Below are positions 18,151 to 37,947 of a DNA stretch of 64,000 nucleotides, in pieces. Origin of the DNA: Propionispira arboris (GTDB taxonomy: Bacteria > Bacillota > Negativicutes > Selenomonadales > Selenomonadaceae); the NCBI RefSeq assembly GCF_900109225.1, contig NZ_FNZK01000020.1, positions 1-64,000 on the forward strand, read 5' to 3'. The position numbers were made by a program, and so were the translations under genes. Position 1 is the stretch's first letter. Each line of letters opens with the position of its first letter. The notes beneath the pieces are model-generated. The model made no database searches and was not told where the DNA came from. It saw only the letters and a list, made by a program, of their open reading frames with translations.

Positions 18151-18429
18151 TTATCCCTGACTAACGACGCGCACTTTGCTCACATTAAAACAAGCTTTCA
18201 ATACAGGAATGAATTTTTGTTCAATAATTGAATAATACATCGTTTTTCCGGTGATAAGCAATAGAAGATCACCGCTCTTTTTGAGGCTGATCAATGAATT
18301 AATATATTTATCAAAATCGGCTTCACCAATTCGTTCCCTCACTTGATCCAACCCCACCAACAGCTCTGGCTGATCTATTGCAATTCGTTCGCGAAGCGGT
18401 GTAAACGGTATGCTTGTAAAATTTGACAT
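18151..18429 (-). CDS. Small protein resembling the DnaA N-terminal domain
   Basis: A 92-residue protein. The part from about residue 26 (LDQVRERIGEADFDKYINSL ... GDLLLLITGKTMYYSIIEQKFIPVL) follows the pattern of the DnaA N-terminal domain, which has a conserved hydrophobic core and mediates protein contacts. No AAA+ or DNA-binding part follows. The ATG at 18429 has a strong GGAGGGG. It sits 22-31 bases before the ABC exporter ATPase and is probably co-transcribed with it. The DnaA-N resemblance is a visual match and not certain. Confidence 0.55.
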   Translation of the reverse strand: MSNFTSIPFTPLRERIAIDQPELLVGLDQVRERIGEADFDKYINSLISLKKSGDLLLLITGKTMYYSIIEQKFIPVLKACFNVSKVRVVSQG

Positions 18430-18479
18430 AAAATCCCCTCCAGTACTTTTTATTTTACCATGTTGAAGCATATTATTTA

Positions 18480-19415
18480 TCATTTTTCATAGACTGCTTC
18501 AAAAATATTTTTTACTGCAAAAACTACATATTGTGATGTCGAATAGGTATATTTATCATTAACTTGAATTAAATGATGATTCATAACCGCTGGAATATGC
18601 TGTAAGGCCGGGTCCGTCAATATAGAATTTCTAAACTGCGCAATGTCCTCCCCTGCATAATCCCATGTTGGAATCATCAAAATATCAGGTTTCATTGCCA
18701 CGATCTGTTCTTTCGCTAACACATCATTTTTCTCAAGTCCGGCCAAAGCCGCTCCATTGATGACACCCGCGTTTTTATAAATATCATCCAGCATACTGCC
18801 TTTTCCGCCATAACACCCCATAAAAGACAGGGCCATGACCATCTTTTTTTGATTTTCAGGAATCAACTGAACTTTATTCGTTATTTGAGTTAATACAGCA
18901 TCCATATCTGCAACAATTTTTTTACTTTTTTCAGTTTCACCAACAATAATCCCCATATCCAAAACCAAAGTTCTGACCTCAGCAATGGTTTGCGGCGTTT
19001 TATATACATACACTGGCACATTTAATTCACGCAGACTCACAATAAAATCGTCTGGCAGCCAGTCACCCACAATAATCAAATCTGGATTTTTAGCCAAAAT
19101 CGCCTCAATACTTTTATTTTCAAGCATAGGCAAGCCTTCTGCCTGCACAGCGACATTTGAAATAGACGGGTTTGCCGCGAGTGATGATACCGACGCTAAA
19201 CAGTCTTTATCAACTAAGGAAAGTAAAATTTCATCACTGCATAAAGTCAAAGAAACAATATGCTGCGGCTTATGCAACATTTCCACAACCTGCTCATGTG
19301 AGTCGACTGCCTTATAGCCAGTATTTTGTTCAAGTTTAACTGCATTATTGCCACAACCACTAAAAAACAGCCCTACAATGCTAAATAACAGTACCATTAT
19401 AATCTTGCACTTCAT
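18480..19415 (-). CDS. BtuF/FecB-type substrate-binding lipoprotein, paralogue of the one at 35510
   Basis: A roughly 311-residue periplasmic binding protein of the class III (BtuF/FhuD) fold. The signal peptide ends in a lipobox, LFFSGC. QHIVSLTLCSDEILLSL, the INGAALAG stretch and KPDILMIPTWD follow BtuF-like proteins, and it aligns along its length with the protein at 35510-36535 (for example YGGKGSMLDD versus YGGSGCTFDD). The ATG at 19415 follows the upstream gene's stop codon. No FecCD permease is adjacent, so it may serve the BtuCD pair at 33.5-35.4 kb. The likely ligand is a corrinoid; heme is an alternative. Confidence 0.8.
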   Translation of the reverse strand: MKCKIIMVLLFSIVGLFFSGCGNNAVKLEQNTGYKAVDSHEQVVEMLHKPQHIVSLTLCSDEILLSLVDKDCLASVSSLAANPSISNVAVQAEGLPMLENKSIEAILAKNPDLIIVGDWLPDDFIVSLRELNVPVYVYKTPQTIAEVRTLVLDMGIIVGETEKSKKIVADMDAVLTQITNKVQLIPENQKKMVMALSFMGCYGGKGSMLDDIYKNAGVINGAALAGLEKNDVLAKEQIVAMKPDILMIPTWDYAGEDIAQFRNSILTDPALQHIPAVMNHHLIQVNDKYTYSTSQYVVFAVKNIFEAVYEK

Positions 19416-19417
19416 TA

Positions 19418-20413
19418 TTATACACCTGCCATCGTAGATTTTTGTATGGTTATTTTCTGCTGCCAATCCACGCTGGAACGTTGAACAAATTCATGAATTA
19501 AATAATCAGGACACACCATTTGAACAATTTTTTTGGCCGATGAATCTGTAAACGGCAGATGCTGATCAATCTGCAAAATATGATTCATCAACTGAACTGG
19601 ATCCGTAGGATCATCCGTACAAAATTGTTTTTTCTGTTTCACATATCTTCCTGATAAAGAATAATGCAAATGAATACCATGAATTTTCGTTTTGTATTCC
19701 CCTAAATCCTCTACCGTTTTTAAAACGTAATCAACGGCCTCCGCCTGCGTGTTTAAATCTAAATTGGTATTCATCAAATGCCCCGTATCGAGCATTATAC
19801 CGCTATTTTTGTGCTCGATATTCTGAAAAAGATATTCGACTAAATCTTTATCTAAAAGCGTCAAACCAGGCCACCATAAATTTTCAAATAACAACAATCG
19901 ATCATTAGGCAATTCGCGCGTAATTTCATTAATCACCTCAACAGCAGCCGTCACAACTTCACGACTCGTGGCCGAAAAGCAATACTTAAAAACTTCGCTT
20001 GAACGAACTTGTGCGATATGAAAGACCATGTATTCGGCGGGTGTCGCTGCTGCTTGCACAATATTTTCCCGGTATACATCTAGCCAAGCTTGACGCGTTA
20101 AGCCACCATAACAGGCCGAAATCGAATCGGCATTTCCTATTTCTTTGTGTAAAATCGTATAATCCTGCCGCCAAAAATCAAACCAATTAAACCAAAAACG
20201 CAGATGGATGCCCTTAATCCACTCTGGCCTGTGCAAATTTTCCTGCCATGGCTTACAAAGCATCAGCTCAATGCCGTCCAAATGATATGTATTTAAAAAA
20301 TGCTCCAGACAACAAGCTTGATTCATAATCAAATCTTTCGTATCAGTGGGATAATTGGATAAATTTACTAATTCTAAAATAAGACACCCTCCCTTATACG
20401 TTTCAAGTTCCAT
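19418..20413 (-). CDS. cbiR: TIM-barrel protein of the AP endonuclease 2 superfamily, candidate cobamide hydrolase CbiR
   Basis: A 331-residue protein with xylose-isomerase-like TIM-barrel landmarks: LDGIELMLC near the N-terminus, RLLLFENLWWPG (a metal-ligand Glu on a strand), GIMLDTGHLMNT (Asp and His ligands) and KIHGIHLHYSL late in the fold. CbiR of Akkermansia, which hydrolyses the phosphoribosyl bond of cobamides to start lower-ligand remodelling, belongs to this superfamily. The gene lies between a BtuB-like receptor (stop 48 bases upstream) and a BtuF-like lipoprotein, which supports that role. The start at 20413 has AAGGGTG upstream; ATG 20458 lacks one. A sugar isomerase is the main alternative. 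Confidence 0.62.
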   Translation of the reverse strand: MELETYKGGCLILELVNLSNYPTDTKDLIMNQACCLEHFLNTYHLDGIELMLCKPWQENLHRPEWIKGIHLRFWFNWFDFWRQDYTILHKEIGNADSISACYGGLTRQAWLDVYRENIVQAAATPAEYMVFHIAQVRSSEVFKYCFSATSREVVTAAVEVINEITRELPNDRLLLFENLWWPGLTLLDKDLVEYLFQNIEHKNSGIMLDTGHLMNTNLDLNTQAEAVDYVLKTVEDLGEYKTKIHGIHLHYSLSGRYVKQKKQFCTDDPTDPVQLMNHILQIDQHLPFTDSSAKKIVQMVCPDYLIHEFVQRSSVDWQQKITIQKSTMAGV

Positions 20414-20461
20414 AACTGAAAAGCACCCTTTTATTGTCTCACCGATTCTATAATACATTAC

Positions 20462-22435
20462 TTAAAAAGTATATTTAACGCCAACTTCCATAAAGCGACC
20501 GGCCATCGGATAAGCACCAACGGCTTTATTGCCAGTAATTTCATATGCTTTATTTGTAATATTATCAATTTTAATATACGCCGTCATGGCATTCGTAATC
20601 TTGTAATTGGCATTGGCATTCCAAATCCAGTAATTGCTGGCAGTGAAATATTGTAAGCTCCGACCGCTGCCGCCACTCACATTTACTGCATTATCCCATT
20701 TTGCATCATGATAATGTACCCCAAAATTATAGCCATTCGGACTGCTGTTATTTTGATCCCAGTTGTAGTTATCGGAAGATTTTGTTTCTGTTTTTATATA
20801 AGAGTAAGCTGCATCTACACTCCATTTATCACTCCATTTATGATTGACAGTAAATTCAATGCCGCGTTTTTTTTGTTCATCGGCATTAAGGGCTTCGTAA
20901 ATGTAATTGGTCGGATCGATCTCTACCCATCCAATCGCATTATGAATTTTGCTTTCAAAAGCACTTAACGAAACTGCTGTTTTTTCATCAAACTGCCTGT
21001 TTATACCAAACGTGGTTTTATAACCGGTTTCCGGCTGCAAATCAGGATTGCCAAGCATATATCCATAAGGATCATGCCAAAACAAATCATCCGCATTCGG
21101 TGCATTAAAGATTCTACCCCAAGATGCATACATATTCGTTTTAGGATCAATTTTATAATTCAGTGCCGCTTTTGGTGTAGTCTGACCGCCAAACATACTA
21201 TGATCATCATAGCGAACTCCTGGTACAAACGTTAAACGATCTGTCAATTGGATGGTATCTTCTAAATAAACAGCTTTATTGGTTATTTTTTTATCGAGAT
21301 AATCCCCGCCGGATAATGCACCATTATTAATTTTTGTCTGATGCCATTCTGTGCCAGCAACAAAATGATTCTGACCAATTAACCAATTGTCCTGCCAGTC
21401 AAATCCTGTCATTTTATTACTATAACGGGAATAGCCAGCACCACCATCTATATCATTAAATCCTTGTGTTGTATAATTTTGATAATAGCGAAAATAACTT
21501 GAAGCATCTGTATTTTCTTTATAATGATATGTAAAAGCAGCATTATTGACTAATTTATCCATGCGATCGTGTAAGTAATTCGCTGACATGCCATACTTAC
21601 TATACCCGAAGGCTTCATTCCATTGACCAGAATCATCTGTCATATGCTCATAATTAAATGTCAAAGAAGAAGCATCATTTATTTTTTTATCGAGACGCAC
21701 CGTTCCATTTTTTTTCGCATAATCGCTGTTTCCCATTCTGGTAGTAGTATCATTTTTCCAATTGTTATATTTCATATAGTCTTGATTTTGCAGTCCAGCT
21801 GTAACAAACCAGCTCCAATCAGCCTGGCTGCCCTGATTGGTCAAATCATAATTTTGCGTTTTCCAAGATCCGATACTCATATCCAACGTCGATTCTGATT
21901 TAACATTTTTTCCTTTTTTCGTTATGATGTTAATCACACCGCCGACTGCATCAGAACCATATAAGGTTGATCCAGCCCCTTTTATGATTTCAATTCGCTC
22001 GATGTTTTGCATACTGGCAATTGTCTTTAAATCAATACTGGCACGATTACTTGATGCACCTTTATCCATATTCATACGACGACCATCGATCATTACCAAA
22101 ACGCGGTCATCCCCGTCAATTCTCACTAAATCCTGCCTTGTCATCGAAGCTTCTGTCACTACAATACCATTTACCTGCCGTAAAACTTCTGCAAGAGATG
22201 CATAATGATTCGCTGCTATCTGGTCAGAGCTAATCACCGTAACATTGGCCGCGGTATCAGAACGTTTGGTTGGAATCCGGTTGGCGGTCACTACAACTGG
22301 ATCAAGAACTGTATCTTGAATGGGTTCCGTCATATCCTCTGCATGTACCGTAGTAAAAGATGTCCCTAAAAGCAGTGTTATTCCCATTATTAGCATATGA
22401 TATTGTTTTCTATTTCTTTTTGTTTTCAATCGCAT
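20462..22435 (-). CDS. btuB: TonB-dependent outer-membrane receptor, BtuB-like
   Basis: A 657-residue receptor with a signal peptide (cut near VHAED), a TonB box within LDPVVVTANR, a plug domain (about residues 60-175, with RVLVMIDGRRMN, IERIEIIKGAGSTLYGSDAVGGVINIIT) and a 22-strand barrel ending in aromatic residue Phe (EVGVKYTF). The plug resembles BtuB. The start has AAAGGGAG upstream. It is the first gene of receptor-cbiR-btuF, after the meaB terminator. There is no riboswitch in the 100-base leader, unlike the second receptor operon. Corrinoid is the probable ligand. Confidence 0.85.
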   Translation of the reverse strand: MRLKTKRNRKQYHMLIMGITLLLGTSFTTVHAEDMTEPIQDTVLDPVVVTANRIPTKRSDTAANVTVISSDQIAANHYASLAEVLRQVNGIVVTEASMTRQDLVRIDGDDRVLVMIDGRRMNMDKGASSNRASIDLKTIASMQNIERIEIIKGAGSTLYGSDAVGGVINIITKKGKNVKSESTLDMSIGSWKTQNYDLTNQGSQADWSWFVTAGLQNQDYMKYNNWKNDTTTRMGNSDYAKKNGTVRLDKKINDASSLTFNYEHMTDDSGQWNEAFGYSKYGMSANYLHDRMDKLVNNAAFTYHYKENTDASSYFRYYQNYTTQGFNDIDGGAGYSRYSNKMTGFDWQDNWLIGQNHFVAGTEWHQTKINNGALSGGDYLDKKITNKAVYLEDTIQLTDRLTFVPGVRYDDHSMFGGQTTPKAALNYKIDPKTNMYASWGRIFNAPNADDLFWHDPYGYMLGNPDLQPETGYKTTFGINRQFDEKTAVSLSAFESKIHNAIGWVEIDPTNYIYEALNADEQKKRGIEFTVNHKWSDKWSVDAAYSYIKTETKSSDNYNWDQNNSSPNGYNFGVHYHDAKWDNAVNVSGGSGRSLQYFTASNYWIWNANANYKITNAMTAYIKIDNITNKAYEITGNKAVGAYPMAGRFMEVGVKYTF

Positions 22436-22475: not shown

Positions 22476-22526
22476 AAACAAACCAGTGATGCAGTTCTCT
22501 CCCTGCATCACCGGCACTTGTTTTTA
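22476..22526 (-). terminator. Terminator after meaB
   Basis: AAACAAACCAGTGATGCAG pairs (with small bulges) with CTGCATCACCGGCACTTGTTT around a short loop. It separates the mutase operon from the downstream BtuB-like receptor gene. Confidence 0.8.
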
Positions 22527-22536: not shown

Positions 22537-23667
22537 TCAAGATTTTTCAAACGCATCAATAAGTTTTTGTGCGGCCATGGTTGCCGATAACTGATCTGCC
22601 GCCACCTGGTTTTCGATAAAGAGACGATTCGCTTTAACATTCGCATTTTGATAAAAAACACTGCGTAAATGATCTTCAACCATAGCATAAACCCACTCCA
22701 GCGTTTGAACTTTCCGGCGGTTAAGAAAAGCATGATTTTCCATCATTTTATCCCGAAATGTATGAATCACCTGCCAAATCTCGGCTATACCTGCTCCTGT
22801 TACAGCTGAGCAGGTATAGGCTTTGGTCTGCCACCCTTCCGTTGCTGGCCTCAGATAATGAAGCATTCGTTCATAATCGACTTTCACCATCTCGGCCTTT
22901 TGTTTATTATCACCATCGGCTTTATTTACCAAAATTGCATCGGCAATTTCCATAACGCCTTTTTTCATGCCTTGCAGTTCATCACCGGCACCTGTTAAAA
23001 CAACCAATAAAAAGAAATCCACCATGGAGCGTACCGTAATTTCACTTTGTCCTACACCAACCGTTTCCACCAAAATGATATCATACCCGGCTGCCTCACA
23101 TAAAAGCAGAGTTTCACGACTTTTTCGAGTTACACCTCCCAAGGTACCACCCGAGGGCGATGGTCGGATAAAAGCATTTTTTTCACGCGATAAATTCTCC
23201 ATACGCGTTTTATCACCTAAGATACTGCCCCGAGTAATACTACTGCTCGGATCAACCGCTAAAACAGCTAATTTATGCCCCTTTTGACAGAGGATGCAAC
23301 CTACAGCCTCAATAAAGGTACTTTTCCCGGCACCGGGAACGCCCGTAATTCCGACTCGAATGGAATTTCCCGAATAAGGTAAAATTCTCTGTAATACAGC
23401 TTGTGCCAGCTCCATGTGTTTCGGTGAATTACTTTCAATCAAAGTGATTGCTCTAGCTAGCAGCATCCGATCTCCCGCTAAAATGCCTTGTACATAATCG
23501 TCTACCGTAAGTTTGTCACGCTTGGTTACAGAAACAGATTTTCTTACCGTTGTCGCAGCAAAATTTGTCATTCCATCGTGACTACTTTGAACCCCTTTCA
23601 TAACATCACAAGCAAATTCTTTGCCTGCATTGGCTGGGGTCCAATCCGGCTTATATACATCATTCAT
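22537..23667 (-). CDS. meaB: Methylmalonyl-CoA mutase-associated GTPase MeaB
   Basis: A 376-residue G3E-family GTPase that protects and reloads the B12 cofactor of methylmalonyl-CoA mutase. It shows Walker [10 protein letters not shown] (about residues 107-115), the [18 protein letters not shown] block, the [10 protein letters not shown]3-type motif and NKADGDN as G4. An N-terminal extension of some 50 residues precedes the MeaB core; the ATG at 23667 has AAGGAAC upstream but overlaps the mutB end by 8 bases, and later starts are possible. Last gene of dehydrogenase-mutA-mutB-meaB. Confidence 0.92.
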
Positions 23668-25846
23668 TCCAATGCAGTTGTTCCTTCAATTTTTCAAGAA
23701 TATTTCCGGCTGCGATCGGAAGCACTGTACCTGGTCCAAAAATTGCGGCGGCTCCACTTTTGTATAAAAATTCGTAGTCCTGCGCTGGAATAACGCCACC
23801 TATACAAACCATAATATCTTCGCGACCGCGTTTTTTTAATTCTTCAATGAGTTGTGGCAGCAGTGTCTTATGTCCAGCAGCTAAGGAACTCATCCCCACT
23901 ACATGGACATCATTATCAACAGCATCCTGTGCTGTTTCCTCTGGTGTCTGAAATAAAGGACCAATATCAACATCAAATCCTAAGTCAGCAAATGCCGTGG
24001 AGATTACTTTTGCTCCTCGATCATGTCCGTCTTGTCCCATTTTAGCAATCATAATACGTGGCCGACGCCCCTCATGCTCTTCAAATTCATCCGTCATTTT
24101 GCGAACTCTTTGAAATTCATTACTATCAGCAAACTCGCTGCTGTATACACCTGATATAGATCGAATGACCGCTTTATGCCTTCCACTGACTTTTTCAATT
24201 GCATCCGAAATTTCGCCCAAACTGGCTCTGGCTCTAGCAGCCTCCACAGCCAATTCCAAAAGATTTCCCCGACCAGTTTCCATTGAATTTGTGATAGCTT
24301 CTAAACAAGACTGTACTGTATCATTGTCCCGATTTGCTCTGAGCTTTTCGAGACGTTTAATTTGTGACAATCGTACAGCTACATTGTCAACCGCCAAAAT
24401 ATCAAGTGGATCTTCATGTTCTAAACGATATTTATTAATACCAACAATCATTTCATCACGCGAATCAATATGTGCCTGCCGACGAGCTGCAGCCTCTTCA
24501 ATACGCATTTTGGGCAAACCAGTTTCAATAGCCTTTGCCATTCCACCCAATTTTTCAACTTCCTGAATATGTGCCCAGGCACTTCTAACAAGTTCTTGGG
24601 TTAAAGCTTCCACATAATAGGATCCGCCCCATGGATCAACAACCTTACATATTTTCGTTTCATCTTGCAGATAAAGCTGTGTATTACGCGCAATACGAGC
24701 AGAAAAATCCGTTGGCAGTGCAATCGCTTCATCTAATGCATTGGTATGCAAAGACTGTGTATGGCCTAAAGCAGCAGCCATAGCTTCTACACAAGTTCTT
24801 ACAATATTGTTATAAGGATCTTGCTCCGTAAGGCTCCAGCCTGAAGTCTGACAATGTGTACGAAGTGCCATTGACTTGGCTTTTTGCGGATTAAATTGTT
24901 TGATAATTTTGGCCCATAACAACCGACCCGCCCTCATTTTGGCAACTTCCATAAAATAATTTTTACCCATAGCCCAAAAAAAGGACAGACGTGGGGCAAA
25001 CGCATCAACATTAAGACCAGAATTCACGCCAGTTCGAATATATTCCAGACCATCGGCGAGCGTATAGCCGAGTTCAATATCAGCCGTAGCACCTGCTTCT
25101 TGCATATGGTATCCGGAAATACTAATACTATTAAATTTCGGCATATTCTGTGATGTGTAAGCAAAAATGTCGCCAATAATACGCATGGATGGAATTGGCG
25201 GATAAATATATGTATTACGTACCATAAATTCCTTAAGAATATCATTTTGAATCGTTCCGGCTAACACTTCTTTTTTAACACCCTGCTCTTCAGCTGCAAC
25301 GATATAAAAAGCTAAAACTGGCAAAACCGCACCATTCATCGTCATTGATACAGACATTTTATCCAGTGGAATTCCTGAAAAAAGAATTTCCATATCCAAA
25401 ATTGAATCAACTGCCACGCCAGCTTTACCAACATCACCAACAACCCTTGGATGATCGGAATCATAACCGCGATGTGTCGCCAGGTCAAAGGCTATCGAAA
25501 GTCCTTTTTGCCCGGCGGCAAGATTGCGGCGATAAAAAGCATTTGATTCTTCTGCCGTAGAAAAACCAGCGTATTGACGTACTGTCCAAGGACGAGTTAC
25601 ATACATACTAGGGTATGGTCCACGCAGAAATGGTGGAATGCCTGCCATATAATGCAAATGATGCATACCTGCCAAATCAAAGCCTGTATAAAGCGGTTTC
25701 AAATCAATCTGTTCCATAGTTCGTTGATACAATTCTTTAAAACTCTTGCCGGTTTGTGCCTCCAAACGATCTTTCCATTCAGCAAAACTTTCCTTTTCAA
25801 CTTTCTGATTCAAAGAAATTTTTGTAAAATCAGGATTTTTCTGCAT
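23660..25846 (-). CDS. mutB: Methylmalonyl-CoA mutase, catalytic large subunit
   Basis: A 728-residue adenosylcobalamin-dependent mutase that interconverts succinyl-CoA and R-methylmalonyl-CoA. The TIM-barrel domain carries [18 protein letters not shown], with Tyr and Arg residues of the substrate site. The C-terminal B12 domain has the DxHxxG motif at residues 606-611 ([10 protein letters not shown]), where His608 replaces the dimethylbenzimidazole ligand of cobalt, then SSLAAGH and GGVIPAQD. It starts immediately at the mutA stop codon. It serves the succinate-propionate route. Confidence 0.97.
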
Positions 25847-27999
25847 TATTTAATGCCCCCTTTCATTTGCATCCAGGTCAGAACCTGCAAACAATTTGCT
25901 CGTACATGAATAAATTCCTCTACACCAGAATCTTTGTATGACTGCACAAATTCTGGTGCAGGCATTCCCGCAACCATAACAACCATATCTGGTTTTGCAG
26001 CTTTAATTTGTTTTGTCGTTGGTGGCACAAGCTCAGGATATGTATCATCGGTTGAACAGATGATTGCAGCAAAAGCTCCCGAATCCACGGCTGCCTTGGC
26101 AGCTTCCTGGGTTGTCATAAAACCATCATTTTTCAAAACTTCAAAACCACCGACTTCAAAAAATCCTGTACTAAATTCAGCCCTCGGTTTATGCTGCGGA
26201 ATATTTCCCATATTACATAAGAAAACTTTTAATTTTTCGCCGTGTTCACTTTCATAAATCCTCGCTTTATTACGCAATGCTTCAAACTGTTCACTAAAAC
26301 GATGTTTTTCAACAACTTGCTCGATCTTTATCCCTGTATTTTTTCGGTTAAGTACGGCTGTAACTTCAGCTAAAGTCGCTCCTGCGGCAAAAGCCTGCTC
26401 CAGCATCGGCATGAAATTTGCATTTTCCCTTGCATTGGTTAATTCACTTAAACTGATATTTTTGTATGTTTCATCGATATCTGCTAAAAATGACTTTACC
26501 GATTGAGCCCTTGTTTGATAAATTTCTTCCACATTGATTTTCCGTTTCTCAATCACTGGTTCCATTGCATTCGCATACATATTGACACCAACGACCCGGT
26601 CTGCACGCTGCGCCAGCTTTTTAAAACGCTGTGACAATACGTCCTGAATGTCTTTTTGCACAAAACCATTTTGCAAGGCTAGCACCATACCGCCTTTATT
26701 TTCAATATCTTGTAAGACCTGCCATGCTTTATCTGCAACTTGCTGCGTCAAGGTTTCGACATACCACGAACCGCCAGCCGGATCAATTGGCTGCCGCAAA
26801 TTACATTCATTTTGTAAAATCAATTGCGCATTACGGGCAATACGACGAGAAAATTCATCGGGCAGCTGCATACAAGCATCAAAAGGTGTTGTTTCCAAAC
26901 TATCAATGCCACCAATTGCTGCCGAAAAAGCTTCCGTTGTCGTACGTAGCATATTCACATAAGGGTCATATGTCGTCTTATTAAACAGCCCTGTTTTAGC
27001 ATGAATTACCATTTTTTGAGATTCTGCATCACCGCCAAAGCTCTGCACAATTTGAGCCCATAGAACTTTCGCTGCCCGTAATTTAGCAATTTCCATAAAG
27101 AAATTCGATCCCAAAGCAAAACTAAACGCAATATTTTTAGCAATACGATTAATATCGAGTCCCTGTTCTTGCAGTTTACGAATATAAACAATTGCGGTCG
27201 CCAGCATAAAGCCAAGTTCTTGCACTGCAGATGCGCCGCCATTATTATAAACCTGCCCTTGAATAAGTATCGTGCGAAGGTTCATTTTATTTTTGTCGGT
27301 CCATTTTATAAGCTCCGCCATTTCAGAATAAAGTACATCCCCTGAAATTGATAAACAGCCTTTTTCGGCCAATACACCAATCGGATCTGCACCAATGATT
27401 CCATGAAGCTTATCTTTTGTTTCGCCATTTGCCTGCATCATGGCACAAATCATAGCAACGATTGAAGCACTGGATTCTCCGGTATGAATATAAACACCAT
27501 GAGCAGCAAGATCAATTCCAGATAAAGCTTCATAAACATCTTGCAATGTTGTTAAAGATACTCCGCCTTTTTTTATGGACTCCTTTGTAATAGCTTCTGC
27601 ATTTTTCCCCTGGCGCGTACTATCATCCAGAGCAATGTTAAGGACCGTTGAGCCTTTATCTAATTCATGTTTCAATAGTTCGTTTAATTTATTTGGCAAA
27701 ATCTCATCACTTTGCTGTGAAATTCCCCATGCTTGCGTTATATAACCACCGACTTTGGTACCACGCAAGTAATTTTCAGTTCCTGGAAAATTGGATATAT
27801 CACCTGAATTTGGTGCCATTTCCATTGTATAAATTGGTGCTAAAGTAATTCCTTCATAAGTTTTTGTAAAAAGTTTTTTTTCAAAACTTCCGCCTTTGAG
27901 CAGTGCTGTGGCTTCTTCTTTCCAACTTTCATACGTTGGTGGATCAAATTCATCAAACAGGACCTCGGGGTTTTCTATTTTGTTTTTTTCTGCTGTCAT
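25846..27999 (-). CDS. mutA: Methylmalonyl-CoA mutase, small subunit
   Basis: A 717-residue non-catalytic partner of MutB. It has the same architecture, with the domain sequence [22 protein letters not shown], but the C-terminal B12-like domain has lost the DxHxxG cobalt-ligand motif: the equivalent stretch reads [17 protein letters not shown]. That loss is typical for heterodimeric mutases. The ATG at 27999 (AAAGGATT upstream) is preferred over an in-frame start at 28056 that would overlap the dehydrogenase gene. Confidence 0.94.
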
Positions 28000-28034
28000 T
28001 TTCCACAATCCTTTCTGACTTAGCTTCTTCTCTT

Positions 28035-28997
28035 TTACGAATCTAAACGTGTGCAACTATCAAGAGCTAAACGAACACTCTTCGCTGAAGCATGTAAAAG
28101 CTGTAGTTCCGTATTGGCCAAACGAATTTCAAAAGAACGAACAATTCCTGTTGAACAAAGCATGCGTGGTATACTGAGGGCCACATTTTTTATACCATAT
28201 TCACCTTCCAAAACAGCTGACATCGGTAAAATCGTGTGTTCATCATAAATAATTGCCTTCACAAAACGACAAGCTGCCATCGCAATCCCTGTATTCGTAA
28301 ACCCTTTCCAATTAATTACATCATAAGCGACTTGAACGATTTCCTTTTCCACTGCTGTGCGATCCAACTTTTCGGTAAGATGAAAATATTCATCCAAATG
28401 TTCCAGACCAAGACCTGCAACATCTACTGTACTCCAAGCCGGAAAAGCAGAATTTCCATGTTCTCCCAGAACATACCCATGAATATTTTTCGTATCCACA
28501 TGATATTTATTCGCTAAAATCCTTCTAAATCGGAACGTTTCCAATAAGGTACCTGTTCCAATTATTTTTTCACGAGGATAGTCAAAGGTTGTTGATATAT
28601 GATAGGTGGCAACATCCAATGGATTCGTAATAATGAGCAGCATTGCATCTTTGGTATATTTTACGATTTCCGTCATGACACTGCTCATTATTTTTGTATT
28701 CACATAAGCAAGGCGAAGTCGATCCGGTTCTTCTCCCGGACGAATACTTGGACCAGCCGTAATGATAATGATACCCGCATCCTTACACTCGGCATATGAA
28801 CCAGCACGAATATTGATATTTGTACTATATATACAAGATGTCGAATGACTGGCATCCAACGCTTCGCCTTTTGCTTTTTCTTCATTTAAATCAATTAAGA
28901 CAATCTCTGAAGCCAATTGAAAATCCATTAATTTGTTTAATACTGCTGACCCTACATTACTCGTTCCAATAATCACTATTTTCCCTTTATTTACCAT
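28035..28997 (-). CDS. Divergent lactate/malate dehydrogenase-family enzyme
   Basis: A 320-residue NAD-dependent 2-hydroxyacid dehydrogenase of the LDH/MDH fold. The Rossmann motif is GTSNVG (residues 11-16), with Ser where the middle Gly is usual; Asp36 should select NAD. Arg156 and the catalytic His180 (GEHGNS) are present. Three usual residues differ: Ile85 at the LDH Gln102/MDH Arg102 substrate position, Glu153 in place of the relay Asp, and Asn182 for Asp in GEHGDS. The substrate may therefore not be pyruvate or oxaloacetate. First gene of the mutase operon and directly behind a cobalamin riboswitch. Confidence 0.8.
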   Translation of the reverse strand: MVNKGKIVIIGTSNVGSAVLNKLMDFQLASEIVLIDLNEEKAKGEALDASHSTSCIYSTNINIRAGSYAECKDAGIIIITAGPSIRPGEEPDRLRLAYVNTKIMSSVMTEIVKYTKDAMLLIITNPLDVATYHISTTFDYPREKIIGTGTLLETFRFRRILANKYHVDTKNIHGYVLGEHGNSAFPAWSTVDVAGLGLEHLDEYFHLTEKLDRTAVEKEIVQVAYDVINWKGFTNTGIAMAACRFVKAIIYDEHTILPMSAVLEGEYGIKNVALSIPRMLCSTGIVRSFEIRLANTELQLLHASAKSVRLALDSCTRLDS

Positions 28998-29170: not shown

Positions 29171-29367
29171 CCCTTCCCATCGCTCGCGGGTCTAACGGTG
29201 ATTGCTAAACAGGCAGTTCTCCTGGCTCTAGATCATTGCTCCTCCACGCCTTCCCAAAGCTTATGCTTCAGTGACATTTTGTGGATTCACTCCCTAATAC
29301 AGTGGCGGGACCGCGTTGGCATTTTATCCAACTTCCCTATTAAGTCCTTTCGGACACCTGTTTCAAC
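29171..29367 (-). promoter_or_regulatory. Cobalamin riboswitch 1, before the dehydrogenase-mutA-mutB-meaB operon
   Basis: Read on the minus strand it begins with AACAGGTGTCC, then has GGGAAGTT, the GCCACTGT core and the B12 box AGCCAGGAGAACTGCCTGTT, and ends in GACCCGCGAGCGATGGGAAGGGG. These are the hallmarks of the RF00174-type riboswitch. AACAGG at the 5' end pairs with CCTGTT in the B12 box region. It has its own promoter at 29416-29444 and two terminator hairpins behind it. The operon it leads encodes a B12-dependent enzyme, which is unusual. Confidence 0.93.
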
Positions 29368-29415
29368 ATTATTCAATTGTTAAATTATGAACTTATTGTT
29401 TCATAACTCAAATCT

Positions 29416-31642: not shown

Positions 31643-32416
31643 TCAATTCAAGTTGAATTGAAATGTACGTTTTACCCCACAACGCACCGGATCGCCAGCG
31701 CTATTTTCTGCCGGTGAAAAACGATACTGATACGCAGCCGCTTCAGCGGCATGATCCATCTCATCGTAACCCGAAGAAGCTATAAGTGACACACTCTCAA
31801 CGCTGCCATCTGTACCCACAATCATTTTGAGCACAACCTGCCCTTCAATACCTTCACTACGCAAATTTCTCGGATAGGAAACCGCTGCAGCAGTTATAAG
31901 CTGTGGTGGAATTTGGGGCCTCAAAGCATTTGCATTGTCATCACCGTTTCCGGTACCGCTCCCTGATCCGTTTTCATTTCCTGTACCCTTATTCCCATTC
32001 CCTGTTTTGTTACCCTCACCTTTTCCAATACCTTGCCCACTCGCCTTATCAGAAGAACCACTTCCTGCATCATTGTGGCTGGACACTGCCTGAGAATTGC
32101 CTTTTTGTTGTTCTTCCTGCTGTTCGGATTTTTGTGCTTTTTCCGTATAATATTCAGAAATAGATGGCTTCTTCGTATCTGCGTTCATTACAATTTCCGA
32201 ATTTGAGACCGTTCCAGAGGCCTCTGATTCCGGTGATCCGCTCCCTGATGATCCACTTTTTTCTTCGGCATCATAGATTGCTACATCCATCACCTGTTTT
32301 TGCGGCTGTCCTACATACAAAAAAAAACCCGTCGAAGCAATAAGTATAAACACAATACTATGAAGTAAAAGTGATACACTTATGGCAATCCGCTCGTTTT
32401 TACAATTATCTTGCAT
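31643..32416 (-). CDS. tonB: TonB energy-transducing protein
   Basis: A 257-residue periplasm-spanning protein: a short cytoplasmic N-terminus, one transmembrane helix (about residues 12-36, starting SVSLLLHSIVF, with the Ser-His pair that contacts ExbBD), a long linker, and a C-terminal TonB domain (YPRNLRSEGIEGQVVLKMIV ... YRFSPAENSAGDPV). The linker is rich in Gly, Ser, Asn and Lys and not in the usual Pro-Glu/Pro-Lys repeats. It couples ExbB/ExbD to the receptors. GGGAGG precedes the ATG. Confidence 0.9.
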   Translation of the reverse strand: MQDNCKNERIAISVSLLLHSIVFILIASTGFFLYVGQPQKQVMDVAIYDAEEKSGSSGSGSPESEASGTVSNSEIVMNADTKKPSISEYYTEKAQKSEQQEEQQKGNSQAVSSHNDAGSGSSDKASGQGIGKGEGNKTGNGNKGTGNENGSGSGTGNGDDNANALRPQIPPQLITAAAVSYPRNLRSEGIEGQVVLKMIVGTDGSVESVSLIASSGYDEMDHAAEAAAYQYRFSPAENSAGDPVRCGVKRTFQFNLN

Positions 32417-32421
32417 TATTC

Positions 32422-32829
32422 TTACCTCCCGGAATCTGCTGCCAAACCAAAGTGCAGGATTCCTTGTGCCTTTAAATGATCAAGAAAAACGACAATTTTA
32501 CCATAATCAAGTTGTTGGTCTGCCCGCAGCACCAGTGCAAACTTTGGATTTTTTTTATTTTCGTTTTTTGCTTGTACAAGCAAAGTCTTTTCATCTATTT
32601 CTTTATCTTCGAGCCACAGTGAACCATCCTTTTTCATTGTAACGAGATACGTTACACTCGTCTGCATCTCCGCGTGATCGGCTTTTGGCATATCAACAGG
32701 AATGGTCTTCAGATTCACCATATAGAGTGTACTCAACATAAAAAATACCAATAGAAAAAACATAATATCAATCATCGGAATAATCATGACTTCTGGCTTT
32801 ATAAAGATACGACGATCACGCAGTCTCAT
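32422..32829 (-). CDS. exbD: ExbD-type motor protein
   Basis: A 135-residue ExbD/TolR-family protein with one N-terminal transmembrane helix containing the proton-carrying Asp in PMIDIMFFLLVFFM, then a periplasmic domain (VPVDMPKADH-like segment, LVLRADQQLDYGKIV). It overlaps the exbB end by 14 bases and is followed at once by tonB. With ExbB it forms the proton-driven motor for TonB. Confidence 0.92.
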   Translation of the reverse strand: MRLRDRRIFIKPEVMIIPMIDIMFFLLVFFMLSTLYMVNLKTIPVDMPKADHAEMQTSVTYLVTMKKDGSLWLEDKEIDEKTLLVQAKNENKKNPKFALVLRADQQLDYGKIVVFLDHLKAQGILHFGLAADSGR

Positions 32830-33448
32830 AGTCTTTCACCTGCTCTTTTTGATTTTCCAGCATAGAAAAGCACTGTTCCATATCCGTTATAATAAGTTCA
32901 ATGCGCTGCATGAAATACGCATGTACTGCTAATGAAATCATTGCTACACACAACCCCATTGCCGTAGCAATAAGGGCTTCACCAATACCACCCGTAATCG
33001 CCATTGCCTGTCCCGACGCCAAATTAAATATGCTAAAAGCCGAAATCATCCCGCTAATCGTTCCAAGTAGTCCGAGCAATGGTGCCATCGTTACAATCAC
33101 ACTTAAATAGTAAAGTCGGCTACGCAATTTTGACAGTGCAATACCCGACTGTATTTCCATATAAGCAGAAACATGCCGTGTATTTTTCTCCATTTTTATC
33201 ATCGTACTGTACAAGATCCCTGCTAAAGTACCTGGTGCTGTATGTGCCATATTTTTAGCTTCGTCGACCTTTCCATTCGCCAATAACAAATAAAATTCTC
33301 GTGAAAATTTTCGTCCAGAGTCAGCCTTTTGAAAATATAAACTCCGTTCTACTGCGATTGTTACAACAAAAATCGAACACAACAGCAATATATACATAAC
33401 AAATCCACCCTTGTGAAAAAATTCCACGCCCTGCATTATAAAATCCAT
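32816..33448 (-). CDS. exbB: ExbB-type motor protein (MotA/TolQ/ExbB family)
   Basis: About 210 residues with an N-terminal helix (GGFVMYILLLCSIFVVTIAVERSLYF), a cytoplasmic loop, and two helices containing APLLGLLGTISGMISAF and GIGEALIATAMGLCVAM, the conserved MotA/TolQ/ExbB regions. The ATG at 33448 has AAGGAG 10 bases upstream; a TTG at 33457 lies next to that site. It is part of the corrinoid uptake operon. Confidence 0.92.
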   Translation of the reverse strand: MDFIMQGVEFFHKGGFVMYILLLCSIFVVTIAVERSLYFQKADSGRKFSREFYLLLANGKVDEAKNMAHTAPGTLAGILYSTMIKMEKNTRHVSAYMEIQSGIALSKLRSRLYYLSVIVTMAPLLGLLGTISGMISAFSIFNLASGQAMAITGGIGEALIATAMGLCVAMISLAVHAYFMQRIELIITDMEQCFSMLENQKEQVKDYETA

Positions 33449-33538
33449 CTCTACCAAACTCCTTCTCCTCTATAGATCCTGTTAAACTCTTATATGCTTG
33501 TATTCGTCAATGTTTTTCTTTGGTTTCATTTTATCTGC

Positions 33539-34564
33539 TCAACGGCTCATATTTCTTGTTCGCCGCAACAAGTAGAGAAAATACGGTGTTCCTAAAACAG
33601 CTGTCATGACCCCTACACGTATCTCAATGGGCGGCATTATAATCCGCCCGATCGTATCACACAACACGAGAAATGTACCTCCGGCAATAATACTCGCTGG
33701 CAGGAGACGACGATGATCCGGCCCAACCAGCATACGCATCATATGCGGCACAACAAGACCGACAAAGCCAATATTACCACTCACACAAACCCCCGTCGCT
33801 GTTGTTAGTGAAGCTATAATCAGCAAAAACAATCGAAAAGGCATCACTGGCATGCCAACAGCTTTGGCCTCCACATCACCAAGCACAAGGATATTTAAGT
33901 GACGTGCCATAAGAAGCATTACACCAATCCCACCACAGATAGGCCCCACCGCCAAAAATACATGTTCCCATCGTCTATAGTCAAGGCCACCAATTGTCCA
34001 AAATAAATACTGCTGCATTTTCTGTTCATTCATCATTGTCAATATCCCTGATGTCATGGCCCCAAGCAGCATGCCAACGACAACACCAGACAAAAGTAAG
34101 GTCATAACTGGTATACGTCCATGACGCATTGCTAAAAACACCGTAAGTGTCACAGCTAAAAGTGCGCCGGCAAAGGCAAAAAGCGGCATGTAGAACATGC
34201 TGAGCTCCGTAAGTCCTAACGCAATTGCAATAACGGCACCAACAGATGCCCCACTCGAAACGCCAATTATTCCTGGATCCGCCAGTGGATTGCTAAAAAT
34301 CCCCTGCATAACCGCTCCGGATGCCCCCAGTCCAGCCCCAACCAGAAGGCCGACAAGCGTACGCGGCATACGAATATGATACAGCACTGCCTGCTGTTCT
34401 GGTGTAAAGGGAACATCTGCAAAAAGCGGAATATGCAATTCATGGCATAGCATTGCTAAAATATTTTCAAACGGAATATCTATTTGCCCCCAGGATAATG
34501 AAATAAGAGAAATTATAAAGAAACACACAAATAAGAGAGGAAAAAAAACTGTCATTTTTTTCAT
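33539..34564 (-). CDS. btuC: Cobalamin-type ABC permease, BtuC/FecCD family
   Basis: A 341-residue permease with about ten membrane helices. RMPRTLVGLLVGAGLGASGAVMQGIFSNPLADPGIIGVSSGAS and GFVGLVVPHMMRMLVGPDHR are family hallmarks; the second contains the loop that meets the ATPase. It overlaps the ATPase gene by 4 bases. Located between btuF/btuD and exbB behind a cobalamin riboswitch, it most probably imports corrinoids across the inner membrane. Confidence 0.9.
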   Translation of the reverse strand: MKKMTVFFPLLFVCFFIISLISLSWGQIDIPFENILAMLCHELHIPLFADVPFTPEQQAVLYHIRMPRTLVGLLVGAGLGASGAVMQGIFSNPLADPGIIGVSSGASVGAVIAIALGLTELSMFYMPLFAFAGALLAVTLTVFLAMRHGRIPVMTLLLSGVVVGMLLGAMTSGILTMMNEQKMQQYLFWTIGGLDYRRWEHVFLAVGPICGGIGVMLLMARHLNILVLGDVEAKAVGMPVMPFRLFLLIIASLTTATGVCVSGNIGFVGLVVPHMMRMLVGPDHRRLLPASIIAGGTFLVLCDTIGRIIMPPIEIRVGVMTAVLGTPYFLYLLRRTRNMSR

Positions 34565-35436
34565 CTAAATTGCTCCTCGCTTTGGCATTCATTCGTAACT
34601 GTATTCACCGCATCAATTCTATATAAAAGTCTTTCCATGGAAATATCTCTATCCGCATGAACCGTAAACACCTCAATATTGCCTGTTAACGGATTCTTGA
34701 CGACTTTTACGGTCACACCATAGGCCTGACTCAGATGTTCCTCCGTGAGAACCTCATCAGCCGAACCATTGGCGATCACACCGCCGTTCCCCACAAGTAT
34801 GATTCGAGAACAAAATCGGGCAGCAAGTGCCAATTCGTGTACAACCATTATCACAGTTTTACCAGCCCGGCACATATTTTGACAAAACCAAAAAATTTCT
34901 TCCTGATAAAAAACATCCAGTCCGGTTGTCGGTTCATCAAGGAAAAGAATTGGTGTCTGCTGCGCGAGAACCTTCGCCAAAAGTACACGTTGACGCTGCC
35001 CGCCTGAGATCGCATGCATCGTCTTATCGGCAAGATCCAACACACCTGTATATTCCATACAAGCACGAACAATTTTCCAATCCTTTGCACTTTCTTTCTG
35101 CCACCATTTTAAATGTGGATAGCGCCCTGCAAGAACAATCTCTTTTGCCGTATAACCAAAAGCAATCTCTGCATACTGTTGTAAATAGCCAACCTGACAG
35201 GCAAAATCATGTGCAGTAAGCTCCTGTACTTTTCGTCCATTTATTTCCACTAAACCTGTTAGCACAGGCAAAAATCCCCTCATTGTCTTTAAAAGGGTGC
35301 TTTTGCCTGCGCCATTCGGCCCAATCAAGCCAACCATTTCACCTTTATTAATAGCAAAAGAAACCTTATCTAATACAGGCTGTTTCATATACCCGGCACT
35401 TATATCTTTAACCTTTACAACCACCTCTGTAGCCAT
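34561..35436 (-). CDS. btuD: Cobalamin-type ABC ATP-binding protein
   Basis: A 291-residue ATPase with Walker A GPNGAGKSTLLK, Q-loop YLQQYAEI, signature ISGGQRQRV, Walker B PILFLDEPTTGLD and switch His in VVHELAL. A C-terminal extension of about 40 residues follows the FhuC/BtuD core. It partners the FecCD permease just downstream. Regulation comes from the riboswitch at 36688-36887. Confidence 0.9.
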   Translation of the reverse strand: MATEVVVKVKDISAGYMKQPVLDKVSFAINKGEMVGLIGPNGAGKSTLLKTMRGFLPVLTGLVEINGRKVQELTAHDFACQVGYLQQYAEIAFGYTAKEIVLAGRYPHLKWWQKESAKDWKIVRACMEYTGVLDLADKTMHAISGGQRQRVLLAKVLAQQTPILFLDEPTTGLDVFYQEEIFWFCQNMCRAGKTVIMVVHELALAARFCSRIILVGNGGVIANGSADEVLTEEHLSQAYGVTVKVVKNPLTGNIEVFTVHADRDISMERLLYRIDAVNTVTNECQSEEQFR

Positions 35437-35509
35437 GTTTTTTCAACCACCAATCTCAGCTATTATTCTCGCAAATGAATCCTTTATCTTATAAATTTTG
35501 GCACTTTAC

Positions 35510-36535
35510 TTAATGGCTGCCCTCTTCTACCGCAGAAATATGGCATGTATGCGGCTGCTTAAAATCATCGCCATACAAAACATAGGCCGTCTCTTGTATA
35601 CCAAATACCATATTCTGAGATACATTATAAATATAACGGGCCCATGGCCGACAAAGATGCTTTTCCCTCACTGCCGTCATCGTTTGCAGGGAAGGATCTC
35701 TTACATATTCCTGCCCAAAATCATCTTCACGAGAAGATCCCCCCGGATATGACGGCAAAAACAAGAAATCGGGATTGAGTGCTACAAGCTGTTCCTTACT
35801 CATAGATTGCCCGTTTTTATTGCCTGCAAGCGCCTTGCCATTAACCGCTTCGGCATATTTACACATATCATCAAACGTACACCCACTGCCACCATACGAT
35901 GCCATAATGGATATGAGTACTGCTTTTTTGTTTTTTTGTTCGCTTGGAACCCGTGCTACTTTTTCTTCAATCTCCACAATCTTTGCATCCATTTGTGCTA
36001 AAATATTTTCCCCACGCTCCGGTTCCCCGATTGCCTGTGCAATAAGTTTTACGGAAGCGCGTACATCCTTGATTCCTTTTGGGGTTTTACAAACAAGTAC
36101 AGGAATTTCAAGATCGCGCAAGGCCGCTATATTTTCCAATGGTATCCAGTTTGGAACAATCACAAGATCAGGTCGCAAAGCTGCCGTTGCTTCAACAGAC
36201 GGATTACGTGGTATCTTTTGTGGTATTTGTTTGGCAAGATTTACAACATTTGAAGACTGAGGGTCGTCCAGATTTTCATTAATCGCCGCCATGCGTTTGG
36301 GGTGTACAAGTCCCAACACAATTTCATCGGTTCCAATTGAAAATGTTACAATTCGCTGTGGTTTTGCCTTTAACTTTACGACAGTTCCCTGCGCATCCAC
36401 AACTTCATAAGATGTATCCAAAGCTTCTTTGCTTACAATCATAGACGAGTTATCACTTTGACATCCGCCCGCAATCATACACAAAAACAATACAAATAGA
36501 ATTCTTCCATATTTCTGCTTAACTTTTTTGATCAT
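35510..36535 (-). CDS. btuF: Corrinoid-binding lipoprotein, BtuF-like
   Basis: About 341 residues, with a lipoprotein signal (LFLCMIAGGC). The class III binding-protein fold is shown by QRIVTFSIGTDEIVLGL and LNPDFLFLPSYPGG. The ATG at 36535 has GGAGGA 8 bases upstream; an in-frame ATG at 36550 overlaps that site. Paralogous to the lipoprotein at 18480-19415. First gene of the btuFDC-exbBD-tonB-btuB run, directly behind riboswitch 2 and its terminator. Confidence 0.87.
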   Translation of the reverse strand: MIKKVKQKYGRILFVLFLCMIAGGCQSDNSSMIVSKEALDTSYEVVDAQGTVVKLKAKPQRIVTFSIGTDEIVLGLVHPKRMAAINENLDDPQSSNVVNLAKQIPQKIPRNPSVEATAALRPDLVIVPNWIPLENIAALRDLEIPVLVCKTPKGIKDVRASVKLIAQAIGEPERGENILAQMDAKIVEIEEKVARVPSEQKNKKAVLISIMASYGGSGCTFDDMCKYAEAVNGKALAGNKNGQSMSKEQLVALNPDFLFLPSYPGGSSREDDFGQEYVRDPSLQTMTAVREKHLCRPWARYIYNVSQNMVFGIQETAYVLYGDDFKQPHTCHISAVEEGSH

Positions 36536-36624
36536 TTGACATTCCTCCATTTTATAGAAACAACACGCTCTTTACACGACTAGAGGAAAATGCCCTACTG
36601 TTTTCTTCATACTAGGAATAAAAT

Positions 36625-36687: not shown

Positions 36688-36887
36688 ATCCCCATCCCTA
36701 TCGCTCGCAGGTCAAATGGTGATTGTTAAACAGGCAGTTCTCCTGGCTCTAGATCATCATTCCTCCACGCCTTCCCAAAGTTTGTGCTTTAGTGACATTT
36801 TGTGGATTCACTCCCTAATACAGTGGCGGGACCGCGTTGGCTTTACACCAAACTTCCCTATTAAGTCTTTGCAGACACCTGTTTCCA
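36688..36887 (-). promoter_or_regulatory. Cobalamin riboswitch 2, before btuFDC-exbBD-tonB-btuB
   Basis: Minus-strand RNA with the 5' AACAGGTGTC strand, the GCCACTGT core and the B12 box AGCCAGGAGAACTGCCTGTT, ending near GGGATGGGGAT. Its 5' boundary lies only about 25 bases after the cbiK stop codon, and no convincing promoter is seen in that gap, so at least part of its transcription probably comes from the cbiK promoter. Confidence 0.93.
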
Positions 36888-36912
36888 TGTTATTAAATTT
36901 AAAATTTAATTC

Positions 36913-37947
36913 TTATTTTTTCTGCATATGATGAACTACAGGTTTAACTGTTTCATTTTCTAGTGCATTCCATGATTCATTCGCACGATCAACGAAAAGC
37001 TTCCGAACATTTTCATTTTCGCCTGCACCATGAATATATGTATCTACTTTAAAGCCTTCTTTTTCTAAAATAGATTTATGTGAATCTGGTTCTGCACCCG
37101 CCATGTCATTATTCGCATGATCACCGGCAACCATCATACCAGGAATCAATGTAACATGATTAATTCCTTTGGCTTTTAATTTTGGAATAATCGTTTCTAA
37201 ACTTGGCCAGCCTTCGACCGTATACAGCAGCACATTATTCATTCCCATTTCATCAATGCGAGCCTGTATAACTGAATAATACGCATTACCTGGATGCGGT
37301 GTACCATGCTGCATTATTAATACAGCATCTTTTTTCCCTGTTTTAGGAAATTCTGTTTTGAATGCATTTAAGAATTCTGTAACATCATCTCTTTGTTTTT
37401 CCTGTCCGGTCCAATACATCAAAGATGTTCCCAATGTCATTTTTTTAAATTCTGTTTTGTATAAGTCAAAAATTGCACTATCATATGCATATTCCATTCC
37501 CGGAATCAGATCCAGTGACGTAAGAGCTACACGAGTATAACCATCTTGTTTTAAAGCAGTTAAAGCTTCTTCTGGTGTTTGAATTTTAATACCTTCTTTA
37601 GCCTGAATGCGATCAACAATAATGTGAGAAGTAAAAGCTAAGACCACTTTCGTATCAGGATGTGCTGCTTGAATATCTGCAACTGTTTTTTCAATGGTTG
37701 CCTTACGCGATTCTTTAAAGGTTGTACCAAAGCTCATGACAACGATGGCATCTTTGTTTGCTAAATTTTTCATTTCGGGATTTTCAAAAACACGAACCCC
37801 AATTTCTGCTGCCTGTTTTAACGCTGGTGTTGCATCTTTAACCTCTGGATTCAGTTCATAACTTGCATAACTCGTTGTCATTCCCACACCCACAAAAGCT
37901 GCACAAGCCAGAGATGTGATAAGCACTTTTTTCCAATTTTGTTTCAT
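36913..37947 (-). CDS. cbiK: Exported sirohydrochlorin cobaltochelatase-like protein (CbiK family)
   Basis: A 344-residue class II chelatase with an N-terminal signal peptide (MKQNWKKVLITSLACAAF..., cut near SYASYE) that cytosolic CbiK lacks. The two metal-binding histidine regions are intact: MQHGTPHPGNAY and PGMMVAGDHANNDMAG, the latter followed by EPDSHKS. The start at 37947 has AGGAGG. A periplasmic CbiK is known from Desulfovibrio, where a heme or metal delivery role has been suggested. Here it precedes the corrinoid uptake operon and follows a cobalamin riboswitch and a promoter with a Fur-like site. A second, cytosolic copy is at 54771. Confidence 0.9.
   Translation of the reverse strand: MKQNWKKVLITSLACAAFVGVGMTTSYASYELNPEVKDATPALKQAAEIGVRVFENPEMKNLANKDAIVVMSFGTTFKESRKATIEKTVADIQAAHPDTKVVLAFTSHIIVDRIQAKEGIKIQTPEEALTALKQDGYTRVALTSLDLIPGMEYAYDSAIFDLYKTEFKKMTLGTSLMYWTGQEKQRDDVTEFLNAFKTEFPKTGKKDAVLIMQHGTPHPGNAYYSVIQARIDEMGMNNVLLYTVEGWPSLETIIPKLKAKGINHVTLIPGMMVAGDHANNDMAGAEPDSHKSILEKEGFKVDTYIHGAGENENVRKLFVDRANESWNALENETVKPVVHHMQKK

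Follow-up and report, generated by a model that had tools for sequence, protein, structure and literature searches.

Enzymes characterised in cobamide remodelling are CbiZ, certain CobS homologues and CbiR, the algal enzyme being given as unknown in the available part of PMC7733943. According to the same partial text, CbiR hydrolyses cobamides anaerobically to cobinamide-phosphate and alpha-ribazole. CbiZ (PF01955) opens the corrinoid nucleotide loop for remodelling as well, but belongs to another sequence family and, as an amidohydrolase, attacks another bond (excerpt of PMC6461909). CblT and CblS are the transporter and the kinase of alpha-ribazole (excerpts of PMC6461909 and PMC6167548). 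Here we describe a gene of Propionispira arboris located on contig NZ_FNZK01000020.1, of which positions 1-64000 were analysed (in the following, the window; the genome consists of 40 contigs and is 97% complete). It encodes a triosephosphate isomerase-type (TIM) barrel protein between a TonB-dependent receptor and a substrate-binding lipoprotein. Judged by its gene company and its fold, a CbiR-like function of this protein is likely. On balance, and by a modest degree, we favour the view that this cytoplasmic protein hydrolyses, with the aid of metal ions, the nucleotide loop of imported cobamides for lower-ligand exchange, and that its family is distinct from CbiR. The three genes are:

18480-19415, minus strand: BtuF-like substrate-binding lipoprotein (Peripla_BP_2 match of 89.6 bits; lipobox-like start read from the sequence)
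19418-20413, minus strand: AP-endonuclease-2-superfamily TIM barrel, candidate cobamide nucleotide-loop hydrolase
20462-22435, minus strand: TonB-dependent outer-membrane receptor, BtuB-like (matches to TonB barrel and plug; below the B12 receptor cut-off)

A first-pass annotation had read these three adjacent genes as a cobamide salvage unit containing a candidate CbiR. The gene calls bear out the arrangement, with the ATG of the lipoprotein at 19415 two bases past the stop of the TIM-barrel gene (coding end 19418). The best NCBIfam match of the receptor is the B12 receptor model (209.5 bits, cut-off 599.7), the haem model lying close behind with 202.4 bits; the label BtuB-like is fair, the score lying below the one set for BtuB itself. 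Likewise, the profile match and the start of the lipoprotein agree with its description as BtuF-like, and it may bind B12. The salvage part of the earlier reading also stands, as in other genomes the TIM-barrel gene is repeatedly accompanied by riboswitches and by genes for BtuF, TonB, CbiZ and lower-ligand formation, but the naming of the enzyme as CbiR does not.

Genes accompanying the TIM-barrel family

Of 300 genomes sampled from the class Negativicutes, 125 contained the TIM-barrel gene, two of them (G023, G151) as fragments only. Its surroundings were compared in 63 loci, namely 60 loci of 14-20 kb from 55 genomes, the window and the loci L041 and L042. One scan of genome contigs yielded three loci. 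Twenty of the sampled genomes also supplied the 20 control regions, situated at a distance of about 0.6 Mb. The hidden Markov models (HMMs) of the neighbouring genes were built from the TIM-barrel loci themselves, so that the counts lean upward; the controls were scanned with the same HMMs. A BtuF gene was present in 43 of the 63 loci and in one of the 20 controls (Fisher 6e-7). The corresponding values were 39 and one for receptor set A, 35 and one for the permease, 31 and zero for TonB, 15 and zero for CbiZ, 12 and zero for CobN, and nine and zero for BtuR. At least one gene of the uptake/corrin set was detected in 55 loci compared to two controls.

Cobalamin riboswitches occurred in 37/63 loci and in none of the 20 controls. 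A riboswitch on the same strand up to 8 kb upstream of the TIM-barrel gene was seen in 27/60 loci, compared to 0.74 expected from the genome densities, the expectation being based on Infernal counts with stricter filters and the observed number on nhmmer at E 1e-5. These 27 include one weak partial match of 28 bits (L080) and two loci with intervening opposite-strand open reading frames (ORFs; L045, L077). In four loci (L072, L055, L058, L049; 0.05 predicted) the riboswitch lies within 0.5 kb. The 26 RF00174 matches behind the riboswitch profile comprised 22 of TIM-barrel loci and four of the window, so that the window's four are no independent test. The order is riboswitch, TIM barrel, ExbB, ExbD and TonB in L072, and riboswitch, two methylmalonyl-CoA mutase (MCM) genes, MeaB, TIM barrel and BtuC in L062. 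On these strong comparative grounds, the family is tied to cobamides.

When 398 genomes of the phylum were searched with a profile, 18 proved positive, 14 of them outside the class, with one match each. In G597 (L166) the order is riboswitch, TIM barrel, riboswitch, BtuF, BtuC, BtuD and CbiZ, the last named and BtuC being recognised by purpose-built HMMs. All five gene-positive genomes of the family f73 (L175-L179) carry a lower-ligand arrangement of two ThiC/BzaB-like genes, CobT, an energy-coupling factor (ECF) S component, an AIRS-domain protein and the TIM barrel, L175 having an additional ORF; L177 was analysed with models, the other four loci being read from translations. Weak riboswitch matches (32-44 bits) directly precede the first bza gene in four of these five loci. 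The S component and the AIRS protein hold the places of CblT and CblS, from which these names are inferred. CblS and CblT would handle the alpha-riboside that a CbiR-type enzyme releases; they are kinase and transporter, not hydrolases. That one family occurs both in operons for uptake and in operons for the lower ligand is most readily accounted for by a reaction at the nucleotide loop.

In the family f131, ECF transporter genes accompany the TIM-barrel gene in five of six loci (models covered L174 and a single protein of L171). In L174 (5374-8784), and similarly in L170-L173, genes for an alpha-alpha toroid, a DUF4430 protein, a CbiQ-like EcfT and a fused ECF ATPase/S component surround it. 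DUF4430 resembles the C-terminal part of transcobalamin, and these operons may encode a transcobalamin-like bacterial B12 importer.

Fold and putative active site

The closest named match of the TIM barrel is a protein of Propionispira raffinosivorans (88% identity). The protein matches AP_endonuc_2 (PF01261) with E 2.1e-6; its 28.1 bits fall slightly short of the gathering score (31.1), and all 24 aligned relatives match at E 0.1 or better (best 1.4e-15). The AlphaFold model, calculated with these 24 relatives, reaches a mean predicted local distance difference test value of 93.2 and a predicted TM-score of 0.91. By profile match and predicted fold, the protein is a member of the AP-endonuclease-2 superfamily, as had been proposed. 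No signal peptide was seen by reading the sequence. A strong ribosome-binding site lies seven bases 5' of an ATT at the aligned family start. Many relatives start with MLxLxNLSN or alike, and the P. raffinosivorans protein is similar across the start region. The true start may be this rare AUU about 45 bases downstream of the ATG at 20413 (region 20365-20413).

Conserved residues E49, H70, H132, E177, D209, H248 and E308 (numbering of the 331-residue form) are located in or at the ends of barrel strands 2-8, whereas the conserved D283 and H285 come after the helix that follows strand 7. Together with H212 they form a set of ten putative site residues, all of which are kept in 57 of the 63 members and in 14/14 members from outside the class. 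Family motifs are ENLWWPGLT, LDTGHLMNTN and IDxHxPF. Site residues are lost in L050, L051, L075 and L078, all four showing H132P and E308H and three of them E177A or V. Two of these members are found in CobN/ECF clusters (L075, L078) and one behind a riboswitch (L050); L051 is near neither. The four proteins may bind without catalysing.

The best Foldseek chains were those of endonuclease IV, a phosphodiesterase, followed by ketose 3-epimerases. The fold is secure, but since enzymes of the superfamily score alike, it neither picks a reaction nor favours a phosphodiesterase. A phmmer search of the TIM barrel against PDB sequences returned two matches, both at chance level, and the open-literature listings, as distinct from whole papers, contained no description of the family.

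Relationship to CbiR and endonuclease IV

With CbiR (Amuc_1679 of Akkermansia muciniphila) the family shares the superfamily, a location beside cobamide genes, in part also transport genes, and conserved Glu, His and Asp residues of a putative metal site, which may or may not correspond one to one to the CbiR ligands. It differs in its own motifs and in a length of about 330 residues, compared to the 249 positions of the CbiR model (NF041277). With this model the TIM barrel scored 16.3 bits, far under the equivalog cut-off of 105 and also below four other proteins of the host genome (24-33 bits). Six of the 24 relatives gave any match to it, the best having an E of 5.8e-4. A carefully computed tree comprised 57 rows; the family accounted for 25 of them and formed a single group (100/100), which a stem of 2.22 separated from the 32 remaining rows of the superfamily. 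A second, faster tree with wider sampling kept 77 rows of the family together (local support 0.91) with none of the 32 others inside, and L104 and L107-L109 formed a group of their own. The 32 rows score 24-154 bits on the CbiR model and represent matches to it, the Akkermansia CbiR not being among them; neither tree included rows longer than 420 residues (L105, L115). We rejected the identity with CbiR on the basis of the low score and the separate clade in both trees.

Profiles were compared with two sets, A3 (L104, L105, L107-L109) and A4 (L106 and seven sequences at 64-84 bits on the CbiR model). The CbiR-model scores are 154 bits for L104, 107 for L105, 100 for L106 and 95-98 for L107-L109. 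The family matched A4 at E 5.8e-9, L104 alone at 1.7e-5, A3 at 4.2e-5 and the endonuclease-IV-like L010 at 3.7e-4, compared to 2e-12 between A3 and A4. Because the members of the nearest set, A4, reach 64-100 bits with the CbiR model themselves, albeit below its cut-off, this comparison picks no relative.

Endonuclease IV (Nfo) shares with the family the metal-dependent phosphodiesterase fold. The Nfo model did not match the TIM barrel of the window at E 0.1 or better, and nine of the 24 relatives matched weakly (best 1.4e-6). Only two kinds of NCBIfam model were hit by two or more of the 24, all weakly, namely endonuclease IV (nine members for the best model) and CbiR (six). The family differs from Nfo in a long insert after strand 7, seen by reading, and in a context of cobamide genes rather than DNA repair. 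In the host, a distinct gene (L010) was recognised as Nfo-like when its sequence was read.

Proposed function and alternative explanations

As judged from the gene content, cobamides would be imported via the receptor, TonB/ExbB, the BtuF-like protein and BtuCD. Cleavage by the TIM barrel at the phosphate-ribose end would then yield cobinamide-phosphate and an alpha-riboside, as with CbiR. The loop would be rebuilt by CobU, the ArsAB-like protein or CobT, CobS and CobC, all predicted activities of genes in the host genome, so that the lower ligand would be swapped for one preferred by the host. The rebuilt cobamide could be passed to the methylmalonyl-CoA mutase encoded just upstream. Expression would rise via a cobalamin riboswitch when corrinoids are scarce, in the window only if read-through passes a hairpin described below.

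Several observations weigh against this proposal, beginning with the rejected identity with CbiR. By profile comparison, the family does not come closer to the best CbiR sequences than to other branches, and no single relative stands out. VIA-align Z values of about 18 were obtained alike for xylose isomerase, IolE and the AP endonuclease of African swine fever virus. The gene company itself indicates a pathway and not a reaction. Eight of the 63 loci (L042, L050, L051, L061, L072, L081, L085, L097) lack the uptake/corrin set, L050 and L072 among them having a riboswitch upstream, and no cobamide gene was seen near the TIM-barrel gene in the f101 loci L167 and L168. In panels of 80 genomes, comprising 60 of the 125 gene-positive and 20 of the 175 gene-negative genomes (the latter all from the host's family), CobS and CobT were as common with the gene (59/60) as without it (20/20). 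Being near universal in this sample, their co-occurrence is uninformative and was rejected as support. G183, a genome of 98% completeness, contains two TIM-barrel copies, CbiZ and CobN, but gave no CobS, CobT or riboswitch match; it has B12-binding proteins. In G207, a congener of G183, CobS and CobT are side by side, so that one missing contig could explain both losses.

Alternatively, the TIM-barrel enzyme might act not on the intact cobamide but on the alpha-riboside (nucleoside or nucleotide) set free from it, for example by releasing the base or sugar or by rearranging them, while CbiZ or another enzyme opens the loop. We give this a small chance. It would fit the position of the gene behind BzaB, CobT and CblST-like genes in f73, the presence of CbiZ in 36/60 gene-positive genomes and adjoining the TIM-barrel gene in 15/63 loci, and the fact that sugar-isomerase folds score as high as AP endonuclease. 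However, uptake genes are far commoner around the TIM-barrel gene than lower-ligand genes, and the host genome, in which CbiZ was not matched, would then have no known loop-opening enzyme. That the protein merely binds imported cobamide in its barrel and passes it uncleaved to BtuR or methylmalonyl-CoA mutase is unlikely. The link to uptake genes, in some loci also to MCM and MeaB, and the retention of members with changed sites, be it in corrin/ECF clusters (L075, L078) or, as with L050, behind a riboswitch, are compatible with such a role, but the metal-site residues are otherwise conserved as expected of an enzyme. Very improbable, and by now difficult to maintain, is an ordinary sugar-phosphate isomerase or epimerase placed near uptake genes by chance. 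Equal Z values for the same fold and the Pfam name 'xylose isomerase-like' would allow it, but the association is strong compared to the controls, the loci come from 22 families of the class, four of them have a riboswitch directly upstream, and the clade is distant from the other superfamily rows.

Some loci point to a larger module. CobN, ChlI, ChlD, NifH/D/K-like proteins, a SPASM radical SAM protein and a nitrilase are each encoded near the TIM-barrel gene in 6-12 of the 63 loci, most completely in L183 and L184 (G183:C14:12000-51800), where CbiZ, MerR and BtuF/receptor genes are found as well. Parts of this set occur in L047, L049, L073, L075, L078, L084 and L090. These clusters may represent a tetrapyrrole or corrinoid pathway of anaerobes. 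The TIM-barrel protein might belong to a machinery that dismantles or re-metallates corrinoids, e.g. for cobalt recovery, an explanation we hold slightly less probable than an action on the alpha-riboside. In such a pathway the TIM hydrolase would remove the nucleotide, CbiZ the linker and the nitrilase amides; nitrogenase-like and radical SAM proteins would work on the ring, and CobN/ChlI/ChlD would remove or swap cobalt. The CobN homologue HmuS takes iron out of haem (partial text of PMC12583661). Each further module gene is near the TIM-barrel gene in 6-15 of the 63 loci, in varying combinations, and the genes are united in G183, where CobS and CobT were not found. Furthermore, CobN tracks the TIM-barrel gene in the host's family (11/18 genomes with and 1/20 without it). 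On the other side, the host has no CobN and CbiZ matches, each of the two is absent from 24/60 gene-positive genomes, riboswitch control suits acquisition better than destruction, and the TIM-barrel members of the CobN clusters L075 and L078 have lost site residues. It is similarly doubtful that an anaerobic Negativicutes pathway dismantles imported cobamides and that the genome studied here keeps only its first, remodelling step.

Gene arrangement in the window

The further features of the window are:

22482-22515, minus strand: terminator-like hairpin with T-rich run in the gap between the MeaB and receptor genes
22537-23667, minus strand: MeaB, mutase-associated GTPase
23660-25846, minus strand: methylmalonyl-CoA mutase large subunit with B12-binding domain
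25846-28056, minus strand: methylmalonyl-CoA mutase small subunit (best match, 433 bits, under the model cut-off of 617)
28035-28997, minus strand: L-lactate dehydrogenase, first gene past the riboswitch
29195-29376, minus strand: cobalamin riboswitch heading the directon (RF00174, 110.7 bits)
31643-33457, minus strand: TonB, a small ORF in the ExbD position and an ExbB/TolQ-like protein
33539-35436, minus strand: BtuC- and BtuD-like genes
35510-36550, minus strand: BtuF paralogue
36716-36897: cobalamin riboswitch ahead of the BtuC-, BtuD- and BtuF-like genes

On one strand, the riboswitch is followed by the genes for lactate dehydrogenase, the small and large mutase subunits, MeaB, the receptor, the TIM barrel and the lipoprotein. 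Neither this riboswitch nor the hairpin between MeaB and the receptor had been mentioned in the first-pass annotation. The hairpin suggests that transcription may stop past MeaB, separating the unit of receptor, TIM barrel and lipoprotein from the riboswitch; 14 terminator-like sites were found in the scanned region compared to 9.8 expected. Four riboswitches of the window and six of the genome reach the RF00174 gathering score. The position of lactate dehydrogenase directly behind a cobalamin riboswitch and ahead of MCM is worth recording, as corrinoid supply may tune the fermentation of lactate to propionate.

The three-gene unit contains no permease, in agreement with the earlier description, which had pointed to the BtuCD pair at 33.5-35.4 kb and its BtuF paralogue. 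The latter shares 36% identity with the lipoprotein. From the sequence data it is plausible that the unit relies on this BtuCD pair, and the genes at 33539-36550 are likely its inner-membrane partner. Likewise, the TonB/ExbB-like proteins at 31643-33457 likely energise the receptors. For the small ORF in the ExbD position (32422-32829) no match was listed in a scan limited to the strict E of 1e-30. Two CbiK-like cobaltochelatase genes (36913-37977 and 54771-55577, minus strand; 197 and 202 bits, cut-off 400) were also detected, the first behind a riboswitch at 38370-38550 and near a nickel/cobalt ABC importer (39210-44191). Behind the lipoprotein, a 110-residue protein (18151-18483, minus strand) is weakly DnaA_N-like (E 0.024); a relative of it is encoded directly before the TIM-barrel gene in L085.

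Lower-ligand genes of the host and possible physiological meaning

A search for cobS, cobT and cobC elsewhere in the genome had been advised; CobT, CobC and two CobS genes were found, in addition to CobU. CobU and one CobS are encoded in a riboswitch-headed cobalamin operon (L182). CobT and CobC, with the second CobS between them, follow the ethanolamine ammonia-lyase genes EutA, EutB and EutC (L181, G000:C19:104000-118000). This set, distinct from the fused CobT-type pair encoded on C28, may serve specifically for the lower ligand of ethanolamine ammonia-lyase. The fused pair of CobT domains (L180) was read as ArsAB.

Phenolyl cobamides are reported only from Negativicutes, to which arsAB is almost confined, in the accessible part of PMC6461909. 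The mutase of Veillonella (VpMCM) binds the cresolyl cobamide native to it more tightly than cobalamin (PMC6759758, in part), and riboswitches tested by others include those of Veillonella mutA and Sporomusa btuB2 (PMC9600662, in part). The restriction of phenolyl cobamides and the preference of VpMCM give physiological sense to a remodelling enzyme encoded behind a mutase. The host itself probably forms propionate. If our reading is true, a second AP-endonuclease-2 family takes part in cobamide remodelling, which would mean another origin of this role. It would also suggest how makers of phenolyl cobamides use cobalamin from their neighbours, and the TIM-barrel gene, given its frequency in the class, could become a marker for cobamide exchange.

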